Part shown: one piece after another, positions 2,213 through 6,651 of the stretch | Layout of the letters: each line of letters starts with the position of its first letter | How positions within the stretch are numbered: position 1 is the stretch's first letter | Assembly (NCBI RefSeq): GCF_005780165.1 | Contig: NZ_VAUV01000009.1 | Span: 124,001 to 188,000 of the forward strand | DNA length: 64,000 nt | Source: Phragmitibacter flavus | Lineage (GTDB): Bacteria; Verrucomicrobiota; Verrucomicrobiia; Verrucomicrobiales; Verrucomicrobiaceae | Reading direction: 5' to 3' | Notes under the pieces: generated by a model | What the model was told of the DNA's origin: nothing | The model's database searches: none | What the model saw: the letters and a program-made list of their open reading frames with translations, nothing else | Program-made: the position numbers and the translations under genes

Positions 2213-3094
2213 TTACGCAACCTGCGTAGGCACCAGCCCCATCTGAGCTTCTGCAAGCTCAATCGAAGGCTGGAAATTCGGCTCAAGGCTCGGCCTGATG
2301 TGCGAGCGATCATTGAGAAAAGTAATCAGCCGCTCGCGCAGCTCGTAATAACGCGGATCTTCCATGATCGCCTTGCGATCCCTCGGACGCTCGAATGGCA
2401 CTTTCATGATGTCACCCAGCTCAGCCTCAGGACCATCGGTCATCATCAGCACCCGATCACTTAAGAAAATCGCTTCATCCACATCGTGTGTCACCATCAG
2501 CGTCGTGATGCGAAATTTTCGCCATAGATCCAACAACACCTGCTGCAACTCAAATCGAGTCAAAGCATCCAGCATCCCAAACGGCTCATCCAACAGCAAC
2601 ATCTTCGGCTGCAACGCAAACGCCCGCGCAATGCCCACCCGTTGACGCATCCCTTGCGAAAGCTCCGCCGGACGTTTGTGCATCGACTCACTCAGTCCCA
2701 CCACGCTCAAATAATACTCCGCCACCTGACGCCGCTCACTTTTGCTGGCCGTGAAATAAACCTGATTCACTCCCAGCATCACATTCTCAAATGCCGTCAT
2801 CCAAGGCAGCAAACAAGGCGACTGAAACACCACGCCGCGATCCGGCCCCGCCTCATCAGTTTCCCTGCCATCCAGAATGATGCCGCCCTTCGTCGCCTCA
2901 CTTAACCCTGCCACAATCGACAGCACCGTGCTCTTCCCGCATCCGGAATGGCCTATCAAAGTCGCAAACTCTCCCTCCGCCAGTTTCGCGGAAAAATCTT
3001 TTACGATCACCGACTCACCACCGTCAGTCTTCGGATACGCCTTCCACAAACGGCTGACTTCCAACATGGGTTTTGCAAACGCATTCATAGTCAT
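2213..3094 (-). CDS. nrtD: Nitrate/nitrite ABC transporter ATP-binding protein (NrtD-like)
   Basis: A 293-residue ABC ATPase. Walker A is GHSGCGKST at 48-56. The signature ([14 protein letters not shown]), Walker B (MLLLDEP) and a normal H-loop ([10 protein letters not shown]) are all present. The first codons overlap the end of the preceding ATPase by 4 bases (ATGA), so the two subunits are translationally coupled and probably made in equal amounts. It would power import through NrtB. The family also includes SsuB/TauB and CmpC/D ATPases; nitrate specificity is inferred from the adjacent NrtA and NrtB. Confidence 0.85.
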
Positions 3095-3993
3095 GGAACA
3101 AGCTCAATGGTTTCCTGTTTCTGTTCATTGCGCCGACGTGGCCCGCGATCACTAATCCACGGCCTGCTCCGCCTCATGCGCAGGTCTTCCGGTAAAATGT
3201 CTGGGAGCACCAGTTTCCTGCTGATGGACACCCGCTGCTTGGCTTTGGATTCCAAAAGCAAATTAATTAGTTCACTGCGCAAAGACTTAAACACCGGATC
3301 ATGATTGACCGCCTTGCGATCCCTCGGGCGTTCAATTGGCACCAACAAACTTTTTCCCAAGGTGGCGGGCGAAGTCGGCAACAGTGGAATCACCCGATCC
3401 GCCAACAGCAACGCCTCATCCGGATCATTCGTGATCCAAATCACCGTCTTGCGTTCCCGCTGCCAGATACTGCTGATGTCATCCTGCAACGTGGCACGAG
3501 TTAGCGCATCCAAAGCACTCAACGGTTCATCCAGCAGCAACACTTTTGAGTCCATCGACAACGCCCTCGCCACTGAAACCCGCTGCCGCATCCCACCCGA
3601 CAACTCACGCGGAAACTTGTCACCTGCATGACTCAGCTTCACCATCGCCACATGCTTGTCCACATGCGCCGCACGCTCTTCCTTCGACCACTGCGGATAC
3701 AATTGATTCACCGCGAGAGCGATGTTTTCCTTTACCGTGAGCCAAGGCAACAGCGAGTAATTCTGAAACACCAGCGCCCGATCCGGCCCGGGCCCTGTCA
3801 CCGGCTTGCCATCCAGCAGCACTTCACCTGTATCCGGCTTCGCCAGCCCAGAAATCAAATTCATCAAGGAAGTCTTGCCCGTCCCAGAGTATCCAATGAT
3901 ACAGACAAACTCACCCTCTTCGACCTCAATGTTGATGTCTTTCAACACCTCATGGTTAGCATACGATTTGGAAACATTTTTTAAAGAGATCAT
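3091..3993 (-). CDS. nrtC: Nitrate/nitrite ABC transporter ATP-binding protein with an altered H-loop (NrtC-like)
   Basis: A 300-residue ABC ATPase with Walker [10 protein letters not shown] (34-42), signature [14 protein letters not shown] (131-144) and Walker B VLLLDEP (151-157). The segment that normally reads THD in the H-loop is ITNDPDEA, so the switch histidine is asparagine (N189). The C-terminus is a short basic extension (about 230-300), without the NrtA-like solute-binding domain fused to cyanobacterial NrtC. It overlaps the next ATPase by 4 bases. Upstream it is separated from nrtB by a 463-base insertion carrying an opposite-strand gene, so its expression must read through that element or start anew. 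Confidence 0.82.
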
Positions 3994-4010
3994 TGGATTT
4001 ATGATTTAAA

Positions 4011-4029
4011 ATTTATGATTGATGATTTA
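4011..4029 (+). repeat. Left 19-bp inverted repeat of the four-helix-bundle insertion
   Basis: ATTTATGATTGATGATTTA lies 11 bases before the ATG of the gene at 4041. Its exact reverse complement is at 4434-4452. A partial direct copy (ATTTATGATTTA) lies just outside at 3998-4009. The pair frames one gene and looks like the boundary of an inserted unit. Confidence 0.9.
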
Positions 4030-4040
4030 GAGGTTCCTTC

Positions 4041-4436
4041 ATGACCTCCGAAGATTTAAAAAATAGAACAATGGACTTTGCTGTTAGGGTGTTAAAGCTG
4101 GTAGCTGCGCTGCCCAAAAACGTTGCTGGCAAGACGGTCGGCAATCAGCTCGCGAGAAGTGGAACGTCTGTGGCCGCGAACTACCGCGCGGCCTTGCGGG
4201 CAAAATCGACTCCTGACTTTATCAACAAAATCACAATCATTCTTGAAGAGGCTGATGAGAGCAGTTTCTGGATGGAGTTGACCGATCGCGCGGAATTGCT
4301 CCCGCCCGGAAAGATCACCGCCCTTCGCCAGGAAGCGGAAGAACTCGTCAAAATCTTTAACGCCACCCGCAGCACCTCGAAGAGAAAAGCAGCTTCCTCC
4401 ACCAACTCCCGCAAGCGCCCCAACCAACAATCGTAA
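4041..4436 (+). CDS. Four-helix-bundle protein (S23 / 23S rRNA intervening-sequence family)
   Basis: A 131-residue protein of the small four-helix-bundle family first known from proteins encoded in 23S rRNA intervening sequences and related to Avd of diversity-generating retroelements. Diagnostic features are the N-terminal MDFAVRVLKLVAALPK, the central GNQLARSGTSVAANYRAA, KSTPDFINKITIILEEADES and WMELTDRA. The last 25 residues are a basic, Ser-rich tail. It lies on the plus strand inside a minus-strand nitrate transport operon, between nrtB and nrtC, and is enclosed by perfect 19-bp inverted repeats; the stop TAA is the first three bases of the right repeat. Its function is unknown; the family is basic and probably binds RNA. 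Confidence 0.85.
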   Translation: MTSEDLKNRTMDFAVRVLKLVAALPKNVAGKTVGNQLARSGTSVAANYRAALRAKSTPDFINKITIILEEADESSFWMELTDRAELLPPGKITALRQEAEELVKIFNATRSTSKRKAASSTNSRKRPNQQS

Positions 4437-4452
4437 ATCATCAATCATAAAT
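4434..4452 (-). repeat. Right 19-bp inverted repeat of the four-helix-bundle insertion
   Basis: TAAATCATCAATCATAAAT is the exact reverse complement of 4011-4029. It begins at the stop codon of the S23-family gene and ends 4 bases before the stop codon of nrtB. Confidence 0.9.
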
Positions 4453-4456
4453 AACC

Positions 4457-5341
4457 TCAGGCGGTTTTGAAACGGGATTCCACCACACTCATCAGGCGGT
4501 CAAGAGCATATCCAATCACCCCAATGGTCAGGATGCAGAGAATGATGTGCGCAAAACTGTTGGCGTTGTATTGCTGCCAGAGAAAGCCACCAATTCCCGG
4601 CATGCCCGTCAACATCTCCACTGCCACAATGACCAGCCACGCTATGCCAAGGCTCAGTCGGAAGCCCGTAAACATGTAAGGCAGCGTCGCCGGCACCAAC
4701 ACCTTCCACAAAGTCTGGAACCTCGACAACTTCAAGACCTTTGCCACATTAAGATAGTCCTGCGGAACCGCCCTCACCCCCACCGCCGTGTTCATCACCG
4801 TTGGCCACATGGCACAGATCGCGATGGTAAACAACGAGGCCGCATCCGAGGCACCGAAAGTTGTCTGACCATTGGCATCCACCACACGCAGTCCACTGAA
4901 AATCACCATGCCCAGCGGCAGCCATGCCAGCGGCGAGACCGGACGCAACACTTGAATCAACGGATCAAAAGCGACGGTGAACTTTTTCGACAGTCCCAGA
5001 CAGAATCCCAGCGGAATTCCGACCAGTAACGCAAGACAATAACCCTGCGCCACCAACTTTAGAGACAACCAAGTAAATCGCAGAATGCCCTGATCGAGTT
5101 CACCGCGTTTGGCAAAAGGTTCTTTGATATACAACTCGCTCGCCTTCCAGGTTTCGCTTGGAGAAGGCAGGTCCGCCGACCAGCCTTCACGCGTGGTCAC
5201 CTTCACGGTATCCCCCCAGTCATCCACCTTGGTCGTGGTCACTGACTTTCCGGCGATCATTGACCACAACAACAGACACACCAGCAGGGCGACCGTCGAA
5301 AGAAGCACGGCTTCAACTTTGTTTCTTTTTATCCAGTTCAT
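4457..5341 (-). CDS. nrtB: Nitrate ABC transporter permease
   Basis: A 294-residue inner-membrane permease of the binding-protein-dependent family. It has an N-terminal membrane segment (about 11-30), a periplasmic stretch of about 65 residues, then five or so helices. The cytoplasmic EAA-like loop is near YLNVAKVLKLSRFQTLWKVL, followed by LPYMFTGFRLSLGIAW, which is typical of NrtB/SsuC/TauC. The gene starts 26 bases after nrtA. The periplasmic insert between the first two helices (about 35-85) is longer than usual for the family. Confidence 0.88.
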   Translation of the reverse strand: MNWIKRNKVEAVLLSTVALLVCLLLWSMIAGKSVTTTKVDDWGDTVKVTTREGWSADLPSPSETWKASELYIKEPFAKRGELDQGILRFTWLSLKLVAQGYCLALLVGIPLGFCLGLSKKFTVAFDPLIQVLRPVSPLAWLPLGMVIFSGLRVVDANGQTTFGASDAASLFTIAICAMWPTVMNTAVGVRAVPQDYLNVAKVLKLSRFQTLWKVLVPATLPYMFTGFRLSLGIAWLVIVAVEMLTGMPGIGGFLWQQYNANSFAHIILCILTIGVIGYALDRLMSVVESRFKTA

Positions 5342-5367: not shown

Positions 5368-6651
5368 TCAGCTTTTGAGACTCTTGACCGCAAAGCTGGC
5401 GGCATAGGCTTCGAGATCCCCTTTTGGATCAAAACTCACTCCATCAAACAGGGTCTCAGCGTCCTCGTTGGCCCCGCCATGGGTGTAACCGATCTCCTTC
5501 ATGGCCTCCTCATAAATGTCGCTGCGCATCACCTGCTTTGCGACCCCCGCATAGTCGGGTTCGCCCTCGACAAACCCCCAGCGACGCAGTTGCGTCAGCC
5601 ACCAAGTCGCATACTTGGCCTGTGGGTAGTTGCAGTTACGCTGACTGAAAATCATGTAATTAGGATCGCGGAAGCGACGCCCATCCCCCATGTCATACTT
5701 CCCAACCAGCCGATTCAAGATCACCTCCGGCGGACAGTTGATGTAAGTGGCCGCACTTACCAGGTTCGCCTGTTCTTCGCGATTGCCAAGATCATCAAGC
5801 CACACGCTTGCTTCGTGCAACGCCTTCAACACCGCCTTCACCGTTTTGGGATTCTTCGCTGCGAACTCCTCAGTAAACGCACATACCTTCTCCGGATGAT
5901 CTTTCCAAATCCCCTGGGTGTTGATCGAAGTAAACCCAATGTCATCCACAATCGCCCTCGCGTTCCAGGGTTCGCCCACACAGAATCCATCCATCTTGCC
6001 CACCTTCATGTTCGCCACCATTTGCGGCGGCGGCACCGTGATCAACGAAATGTCCGCACCACCGCCCATCGCATCCCCAGGATGAATGCCGCCCGCCGCC
6101 AGATAATATCGCATCCACATCGCATGCGTGCCCGGTGGGAAGGTCATGGCGAAAGTCATCGGCGTGCCCCGTGTTTTGGCTTCATCCACAAACGGCTTCA
6201 ACGCCTTGGGATCATCTGCCACCTTGCCCATCAGCTCCTTCTTCAGCGTGATGGACTGGCCATTGCGGTTCAACAACCAGGGAATGATCATTGGTTTTTT
6301 CGGAGCACCTCCCAATCCCATCGTCGACGCAATCGGCATGCCGATCAACATGTGGGTCGCCTGCAGGTCCCCATTGGAGAGCGAATCACGAATCGCCGCC
6401 CAACTTGCGCCCTTGCTCACAGTGGACTGAATGCCGTATTTTTTAAACAAACCCTTCTCATGGGCGATCACGATGCTTGAGCAATCCGTCAGCGCGATCA
6501 TGCCGAAATTCATGCTGGTGGTTTCCGGTGAGTCATCCGCATAAGCGCCTCCCACCCAGCCTTTCGGCAGCCCCGCCAGCAAAGTGCCGGCACCAATGGT
6601 CTTCGCCGTCTGGCGAATCATTTCACGTCGCGTAATGGATAACTTGTTCAT
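5368..6651 (-). CDS. nrtA: Nitrate-binding protein, Tat-exported
   Basis: A 427-residue solute-binding protein of the CmpA/NrtA family. The N-terminus carries a twin-arginine signal (ITRREMIRQTAKTIG, then a hydrophobic stretch ending near GGAYA). Family motifs include FGMIALTDCSSIVIAHEKGLF, MTFPPGTHAMWMRYYLAAGG and DGFCVGEPWNARA, the latter part of the anion-binding pocket in NrtA. It would capture nitrate in the periplasm and present it to NrtB. It starts 2 bases after the stop of the upstream NasS-like gene, so the two are co-translated. Confidence 0.9.
   Translation of the reverse strand: MNKLSITRREMIRQTAKTIGAGTLLAGLPKGWVGGAYADDSPETTSMNFGMIALTDCSSIVIAHEKGLFKKYGIQSTVSKGASWAAIRDSLSNGDLQATHMLIGMPIASTMGLGGAPKKPMIIPWLLNRNGQSITLKKELMGKVADDPKALKPFVDEAKTRGTPMTFAMTFPPGTHAMWMRYYLAAGGIHPGDAMGGGADISLITVPPPQMVANMKVGKMDGFCVGEPWNARAIVDDIGFTSINTQGIWKDHPEKVCAFTEEFAAKNPKTVKAVLKALHEASVWLDDLGNREEQANLVSAATYINCPPEVILNRLVGKYDMGDGRRFRDPNYMIFSQRNCNYPQAKYATWWLTQLRRWGFVEGEPDYAGVAKQVMRSDIYEEAMKEIGYTHGGANEDAETLFDGVSFDPKGDLEAYAASFAVKSLKS

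Follow-up and report, generated by a model that had tools for sequence, protein, structure and literature searches.

The S23 cassette in the nitrate transport operon

The window, the whole stretch of 64,000 nucleotides of the Phragmitibacter flavus genome that was analysed, carries an nrt operon on the minus strand in which ntrB and ntrC are separated by an S23 gene set between inverted repeats. The genes and features of this locus are:

2213..3094, minus strand: second ntrCD-type ATPase, overlapping ntrC by 4 bp; TIGR01184 above cut-off
3091..3993, minus strand: ntrC-type ATPase, downstream neighbour; TIGR01184 above cut-off
3996..4030, plus strand: left heptamer array of five units (GATTTAT, GATTTAA, AATTTAT, GATTGAT, GATTTAG), containing the left 19-bp arm (4011-4029)
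4041..4436, plus strand: S23 (four-helix-bundle) gene, 131 aa; TIGR02436, PF05635
4426..4453, minus strand: right heptamer array, inverted, of four units (TATTTAT, GATTGAT, GATTTAC, GATTGTT), containing the right 19-bp arm (4434-4452)
4457..5341, minus strand: ntrB, nitrate ABC permease, upstream operon neighbour; TIGR01183 213.6 bits, cut-off 209.05
5368..6651, minus strand: NMT1-like substrate-binding protein of the same operon

A sequence-only reading of this locus had described an S23-type gene within an exact 19-bp inverted repeat, with the right copy beginning at the stop codon and the whole unit splitting nrtB from nrtC/nrtD on the opposite strand, and all of these points hold. Profile searches place the ORF above the cut-offs of both TIGR02436 (77.6 bits) and PF05635 (55 bits), the arms are complementary at 19 of 19 positions with a spacing of 404 nt, the right copy starts at the TAA of the S23 gene, and the neighbours score as ntrB and two ntrCD ATPases on the minus strand, to which the S23 gene is antisense. 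The arm score was never reached when the flanks were resampled (0/2000 and 0/5000), and a search of the window with the 19-mer, allowing up to three mismatches, returned only the two arms and one neighbour with three mismatches at 3997-4015 (0.02 expected). The S23 gene is the only ORF with a family match between the arms, and no transposase belonging to the unit was found there.

Two features of the locus were absent from the earlier reading. Each 19-bp arm is the core of a longer array of degenerate heptamers (GATTTAT); the two arrays face inward and reach almost to the neighbouring genes, the left edge lying 2 bp from the ntrC start codon and the right edge 3 bp from the ntrB stop codon, with the right array overlapping the S23 stop codon. 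The proposal that the unit is the same kind of element as the intervening sequences (IVSs) of 23S rRNA stands in part: an S23 gene, complementary ends and an IVS-like build are all present in an insert within a protein operon, but the site, between ntrB and ntrC, is not inside an rRNA gene.

Heptamer arms across the S23 family

Among the 38 genomes searched (designated by G-numbers, with the window genome as G000; loci are given L-numbers), at least one S23 match was present in 34, and the window genome has five. The flanks were surveyed at 99 S23 loci drawn from 17 of the 38 genomes, with the halves of one split gene counted once; the set comprises the matches listed for these genomes, which for G003, G010 and G023 are only part of all matches. 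Arms were scored without gaps (+1 for a match, -2 for a mismatch), with a threshold of at least 13, in a zone covering the 200 bp before the match and the stretch from 60 bp before (80 bp in one survey) to 200 bp after the stop codon. Inverted arms reached the threshold at 78 of the 99 S23 loci, compared to 9 of 994 other ORFs from the same stretches and 6 of 286 ORFs of 90-200 aa; the remaining 21 S23 loci fell below it. The sequence-only reading had proposed looking for repeat pairs around other S23 genes and had named relatives with the same S23 gene but without inverted repeats as a contrary outcome; relatives with the same S23 gene have inverted repeats too.

A periodicity of seven is strongly in excess in the S23 flanks (28% of left and 25% of right flanks pass, compared to 1.1% and 1.4% of controls), as is its multiple, period 14, while a small excess at period 8 (5% and 4%, compared to 0.6% and 0.2%) fits a few loci with octamer arms. 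The same periods were in excess in a wider set of 84 S23 loci (80 named loci, the best 80 of 574 confirmed candidates, and four plasmids), where 53 loci had arms compared to 5 of 137 control ORFs, and the armed loci include Bacteroidota, Acidobacteria, Chloroflexi, Planctomycetes, Cyanobacteria, Clostridia, Nomurabacteria and one archaeon. Strict heptamer arrays occurred 17 times within 330 bp of an S23 gene and nine times elsewhere in 1.73 Mb. Counts based on arms are limited to the loci scoring at least 13 (78 and 53); the arrays have a median length of 4.6-4.7 units, and the left arms are C-poor, with G exceeding C in 115 of 131 loci. No rRNA was found near the named S23 loci at the 20 of 84 that were examined. 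The heptamer-armed architecture is general for S23 genes.

Frames longer than 200 aa occur at 11 S23 loci, eight of which have no arms. Seven loci (L046, L053, L080, L098, L099, L105 and L113) have frames of 204-286 aa with a partial TIGR02436 match and no arms, and such frames probably represent a different family with the S23 fold. Two cyanobacterial plasmids (L264 and L265) carry heptamer-armed S23 cassettes, one between DUF1156 and Swt1-HEPN genes and the other between the DISARM gene drmD and an MmeI-type enzyme. Inverted arms are also found around GxxExxY genes (TIGR04256; L154-L183), scoring at least 13 at 24 of 30 loci, with units of 8-10 letters by eye.

Occupied and empty insertion sites

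Cassettes take up the space between the genes on either side, and a site that is occupied in one genome can be empty at the orthologous position in another. Of the 78 armed loci, 76 have both neighbours, and by strand these comprise 54 with both neighbours in the S23 direction (+S+), seven with both opposed (-S-) and 15 others, against 499, 260 and 637 background ORF triplets, respectively; the median gaps between arm and ORF are 5.5 and 6 bp.

At the ntrB-ntrC junction (n = 17 loci) an S23 gene is present in G000, G002 and G012, and the sequence-only reading had suggested comparing nrt operons that lack the insert to define its ends and duplications. Empty junctions were recovered at 12 of the 17 loci, with ntrC starting 12-54 bp past the last ntrB residue (stop codon counted), but the comparison yielded no target-site duplication evident by eye, here or at livG-livF, and the empty gaps vary in length. 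At the livG-livF junction (n = 16 loci), S23 is present in four, the gap is 0 in eight and it is 5-50 bp in four. A third site (n = 12 loci) holds two unrelated S23 types (at most 25% identity) in four loci and short gaps in five, the rest being a GxxExxY gene in G015 (L285), an array remnant in G001, and G008, where the upstream gene was not recognised. The window S23 type also occurs in G020 (75% identity), there between the substrate-binding gene and ntrB. GxxExxY genes fill operon junctions that S23 cassettes occupy in other species, both in G015 and in G004, where one with inverted arms stands between ntrB and ntrC (L150, L180) instead of S23. The evidence for mobility is this presence and absence at orthologous sites; movement itself was not seen.

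Three further observations concern individual junctions. In G008 (L147), 250 bp are inserted at the ntrB-ntrC junction, with CAGCCTGCTGCCGC-like stretches in inverted orientation. Where G011 (L288) has an octamer-armed S23 cassette, its congener G001 carries a 61-bp array (L287) that looks like the remnant of a right arm after loss of the gene and the left arm. In the window genome, ntrB is closer to that of G020 (82%) than to that of G002 (72%), and ntrC is closer to those of G002 and G012 (75%) than to that of G020 (67%); from these opposite affinities, a recombination joint at the cassette is possible.

Heptamer identity follows the S23 lineage

The heptamers are specific to the locus and track the lineage of the protein. 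At 64 of the 78 loci, the left arm pairs best with the right arm of the same locus, and the likeness of arms tracks protein identity (rho 0.195, compared to 0.063 for the largest of 300 permutations), with descent at fixed sites accounting for much of this correlation. Among pairs with no flank homology, arms are shared by 9 of 97 S23 pairs with at least 50% identity and by 6 of 2636 pairs below 50%.

The two arms of one locus also remain matched as orthologues diverge. For 44 pairs of orthologues at the same site, the own-arm score was 22.5 and the cross score 12.0, with clean separation in 30 of the 44, in a comparison where the arms were picked by their own score, which biases the result toward 'own'. 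Arms are nearly constant in two pairs, with 2 differences in 68 positions at a dS of 1.14 (L050/L119) and 1 in 68 with dS saturated (L047/L116); in other close pairs they change more (10/94 in L121/L125; 6/55 aligned positions in L035/L093).

Dispersed arrays away from S23 genes

Gene-free arrays of the S23 heptamer are scattered in the genome, and those of one type occur as inverted pairs. The window 19-mer has 35 matches with up to three mismatches in its own genome, compared to none for the reversed pattern, so the repeats are not found only at this locus, the other outcome that the sequence-only reading had named as contrary. Fourteen other GATTTAT stretches fetched from the window genome are single arrays, mostly in or beside intergenic gaps, and no inverted pair was seen among them.

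The co-occurrence of arrays with a matching S23 gene fits for GTTGATG, mostly for GATTTAT and poorly for AATGACG, where 'matching' refers to arms examined at the fetched loci, a non-exhaustive set, and the copy thresholds of 10, 15 and 20 were chosen after the counts were known. GTTGATG arrays number 10-45 in the five genomes with a matching S23 among the fetched loci and do not exceed 7 in any of the other 33, so that counts of at least 10 are confined to the genomes in which the matching S23 was observed; the reversed control reaches 11 in G011, and the five genomes are not all independent as G002 and G012 belong to one genus. GATTTAT arrays number 29, 30, 15 and 25 in the four genomes where the matching S23 was seen, and among the 34 others at least 15 were found in two, G024 (51) and G025 (165), with 0-8 in the rest; none of the six S23 loci of G024 carries the GATTTAT heptamer. 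The 2.4-Mb genome G025 (L329-L341), with its 165 matches of GATTTAT/GATTTAC type, has no S23 or GxxExxY match, and GATGGAC-type arrays lie near its GATTTAT-type arrays. AATGACG was rejected as a third matching case: at least 20 arrays occur in the three predicted genomes and in seven others, including G013, which has no S23, and G006, where one S23 locus bears the unit in reverse complement; the reversed control also gives high counts (38 in G002, 47 in G012 and 72 in G019).

Dispersed inverted pairs of the GTTGATG type are present in G002, G012 and G006. Among the 30 array sites in G002 and G012, with partners allowed up to 11 mismatches in 34, 24 are inward pairs of the S23 arm with loops of 40-361 nt and none is outward; excluding the 10 sites picked for their inverted pairs, 14 of 20 are inward pairs without an S23 gene. 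A further series of 20 array stretches consisted entirely of preselected inverted pairs. Of the 59 arm hits in these two genomes, in which overlapping hits were left in, 16 match the S23 arm at every one of 34 nt. The possibility that the gene-free pairs are copies of one mini-element was rejected, with only 5 of 276 loop pairs alike, and because the loops are mostly unrelated, copying or homogenisation seems to act on the arms and not on what they enclose. A weak remnant of S23 (best E 1e-5) lies in one loop of 361 nt (L356).

Fold and selection of the S23 protein

Proteins of the S23/IVP family occur in many bacterial phyla and, to our knowledge, have no known function. An AlphaFold2 model of the window S23 (107 residues, pLDDT 96.4) matches the solved S23 entries 2rld and 2gsc, both of which have five chains, and more weakly Avd (4dwl and 8ub7, the latter a ribonucleoprotein of a diversity-generating retroelement; TM-score 0.78-0.80, Foldseek E 0.08-0.1). 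In the available passages of PMC10053308, a homology of PF05635 to Avd is noted and a cited title mentions five four-helix bundles. The model thus resembles Avd of diversity-generating retroelements, but unlike in those elements, PF00078 (reverse transcriptase) had no match in 7 of the 17 genomes with at least four S23 genes. A reverse transcriptase acting in trans was considered and rejected, as it showed no correlation with S23 (rho 0.10).

Values of dN/dS were 0.02-0.11 in 9 of 13 S23 pairs and saturated in four, with some dS values above 1.5 and therefore rough. The genes are under purifying selection in the nine measurable pairs; the window gene could be set only against its partner in G020, a saturated comparison (pN 0.17, pS 0.75).

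Competing explanations

One alternative, which takes up the suggestion of the sequence-only reading that the repeats pair in the nrt mRNA and are processed out, is that the cassette acts as an IVS-type RNA element, the arms pairing in the host mRNA, RNase III cutting the stem and the S23 segment being removed or looped out, so that insertion would be neutral. The build is indeed like that of the Coxiella IVS, which is excised by RNase III and has heptamers ahead of its ORF (PMC4990558, available passages), 61 of the 76 cassettes are flanked by ORFs that share one direction, some 5 bp away on either side, and predicted minimum-energy folds, computed for the first 40 loci that could be used, contain half or more of the arm pairs at 31 loci in the sense and 27 in the antisense direction. 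Arm mismatches, however, show no bias toward preserving G-U pairs in S23-sense RNA (69 in the S23-sense class compared to 100 in the opposite one), and the fold predicted for the nrt transcript of the window does not stand out in stability (z -1.45, with 12 of 100 shuffled sequences doing as well). In part of the cassettes at livG-livF and ntrB-ntrC, a Shine-Dalgarno-like stretch precedes the left arm and the start codon follows the right arm. Across 69 loci the joined leader (-2.51 kcal/mol) surpasses the linear one (-0.76) but not leaders in which the left part was permuted (-2.35, sd 0.19), and a split ribosome-binding site was rejected as being without specific support. Processing of the segment out of the mRNA thus gained no support from these three tests. 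An RNA element alone also leaves the heptamer periodicity and the dispersed gene-free pairs unexplained, and we consider this alternative unlikely.

A second alternative makes S23 a regulator of the host, a pentamer that controls messages by binding heptamers in the RNA of its own leader and in dispersed arrays that are themselves under selection, for which TRAP provides the comparison. Purifying selection, measured for the protein in 9 of 13 pairs, the near constancy of arms in the two pairs at dS 1.1 or saturation, the excess of G over C in left arms, the predicted Avd-like fold and the position of single arrays in or beside intergenic gaps would all suit such a role. Arguing against it, the patchy presence at orthologous sites and the occurrence of unrelated S23 types at one site resemble mobile DNA, 22 of the 76 cassettes are not +S+, and the arms of other close pairs differ more (e.g., L121/L125), leaving this explanation similarly improbable.

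It is more doubtful still that S23 is a passenger, carried at times by heptamer hairpins that Y1 transposases (IS200/RAYT-type) would mobilise in trans. Y1_Tnp is present in 36 of the 38 genomes and its count tracks the S23 count (rho 0.60; partial 0.45 given genome size, which the S23 count also tracks, rho 0.49), and the gene-free hairpins are REPIN-like. Nevertheless, G027 has two S23 genes and no Y1, none of 15 listed Y1 genes (15 of 36 matches, in G002, G012 and G006) lies within 10 kb of a listed GTTGATG array by eye, and the type of heptamer tracks S23 identity. Chance or low-complexity flanks, to which the AT-rich window arms might be ascribed, can be set aside in view of 0/7000 resamplings and the prevalence of arms at S23 loci (78/99) over other ORFs (9/994).

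Proposed recognition of the heptamers by their S23 protein

With moderate confidence, we favour the reading that the S23 cassette is an IVS-like and REPIN-like system of gene and repeat in which the protein recognises its own heptamers. The cassette has one gene for a four-helix bundle between a pair of arrays that face inward, each of about five degenerate heptamers, which would serve as its ends, and it would be the free-standing counterpart of the S23 IVSs of 23S rRNA and a RAYT/REPIN-like pair without a transposase. An S23 pentamer with the Avd fold may recognise its heptamer array at roughly one unit per subunit, and the match between about five units and five subunits is a suggestive fit. 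Such putative recognition could allow the arms to be copied or kept uniform across sites. In the nrt operon, paired arms would extrude the insert as a loop and place the ntrB stop beside the ntrC start, which may explain the tolerance of the operon for the cassette.

A broader version is put forward more tentatively, at somewhat short of an even chance. S23 proteins might be the dedicated partners of dispersed families of heptamer hairpins in bacteria, a transposase-free arrangement in which a pentamer with the Avd fold reads a seven-letter code of its own and arms are copied or overwritten independently of what they enclose, and IVSs, operon cassettes and at least some of the unexplained heptamer arrays of cyanobacteria and others might then be one system, with GxxExxY genes and their arms of 8-10 letters as a parallel.

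Relation to known systems

Intervening sequences in rRNA and intergenic heptamer repeats are old puzzles. In RAYT/REPIN systems, a gene flanked by its own inverted repeats is accompanied by dispersed inverted pairs in the same genome, and the GTTGATG-type S23 arm similarly recurs as dispersed inverted pairs, which was not seen for the GATTTAT type of the window. The S23 systems differ in having a four-helix bundle in place of a Y1 transposase, arms that are heptamer arrays and loops that are mostly unrelated. Cyanobacterial STRR sequences are likewise intergenic heptamer arrays present in many copies per genome.

The closest precedent is the Coxiella 23S rRNA IVS, with a 28-bp terminal stem and tandem GACAGAT heptamers before the S23 ORF (PMC4990558, available passages). 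The elements share an S23 ORF, the 428-444 nt size, complementary ends that form a stem and tandem heptamers before the ORF, but here the cassettes lie in protein operons, several types occur per genome, the arms are cognate to the S23 lineage and gene-free copies are found in the genome. S23 genes are under purifying selection in the pairs measured here, in contrast to the reductive evolution described for Coxiella (PMC4990558, same passages). Insertions in the rRNA genes of CPR bacteria contain the same protein family, 23S_rRNA_IVP, but are restricted to rRNA genes, and the words 'heptamer', 'inverted repeat' and 'tandem' do not occur in the available text (PMC11270868).

The TAACTGA heptamers of Beggiatoaceae, cyanobacteria and Bacteroidetes also form many intergenic arrays per genome, and the explanations considered for them, in the available portion of the source, are translational regulation, an alternate RNA polymerase subunit and cold-shock proteins (PMC4679880). 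In that portion neither S23 nor a helix bundle is mentioned; unlike those explanations, S23 is proposed here as the cognate gene of heptamer arrays. G-rich heptamers in Xanthomonas and Nostoc are the subject of PMC4692102. Among the entries listed by searches of the open-licence PMC literature, none but the Coxiella paper (PMC4990558) links S23 genes with flanking heptamer arrays at the level of the listing.

A lineage-specific heptamer code that is matched within each locus makes the function of S23 and the puzzle of heptamer repeats jointly testable. Such a code predicts what each S23 protein binds and which genomic arrays belong to it, and it would also show how inserts persist between closely coupled genes.
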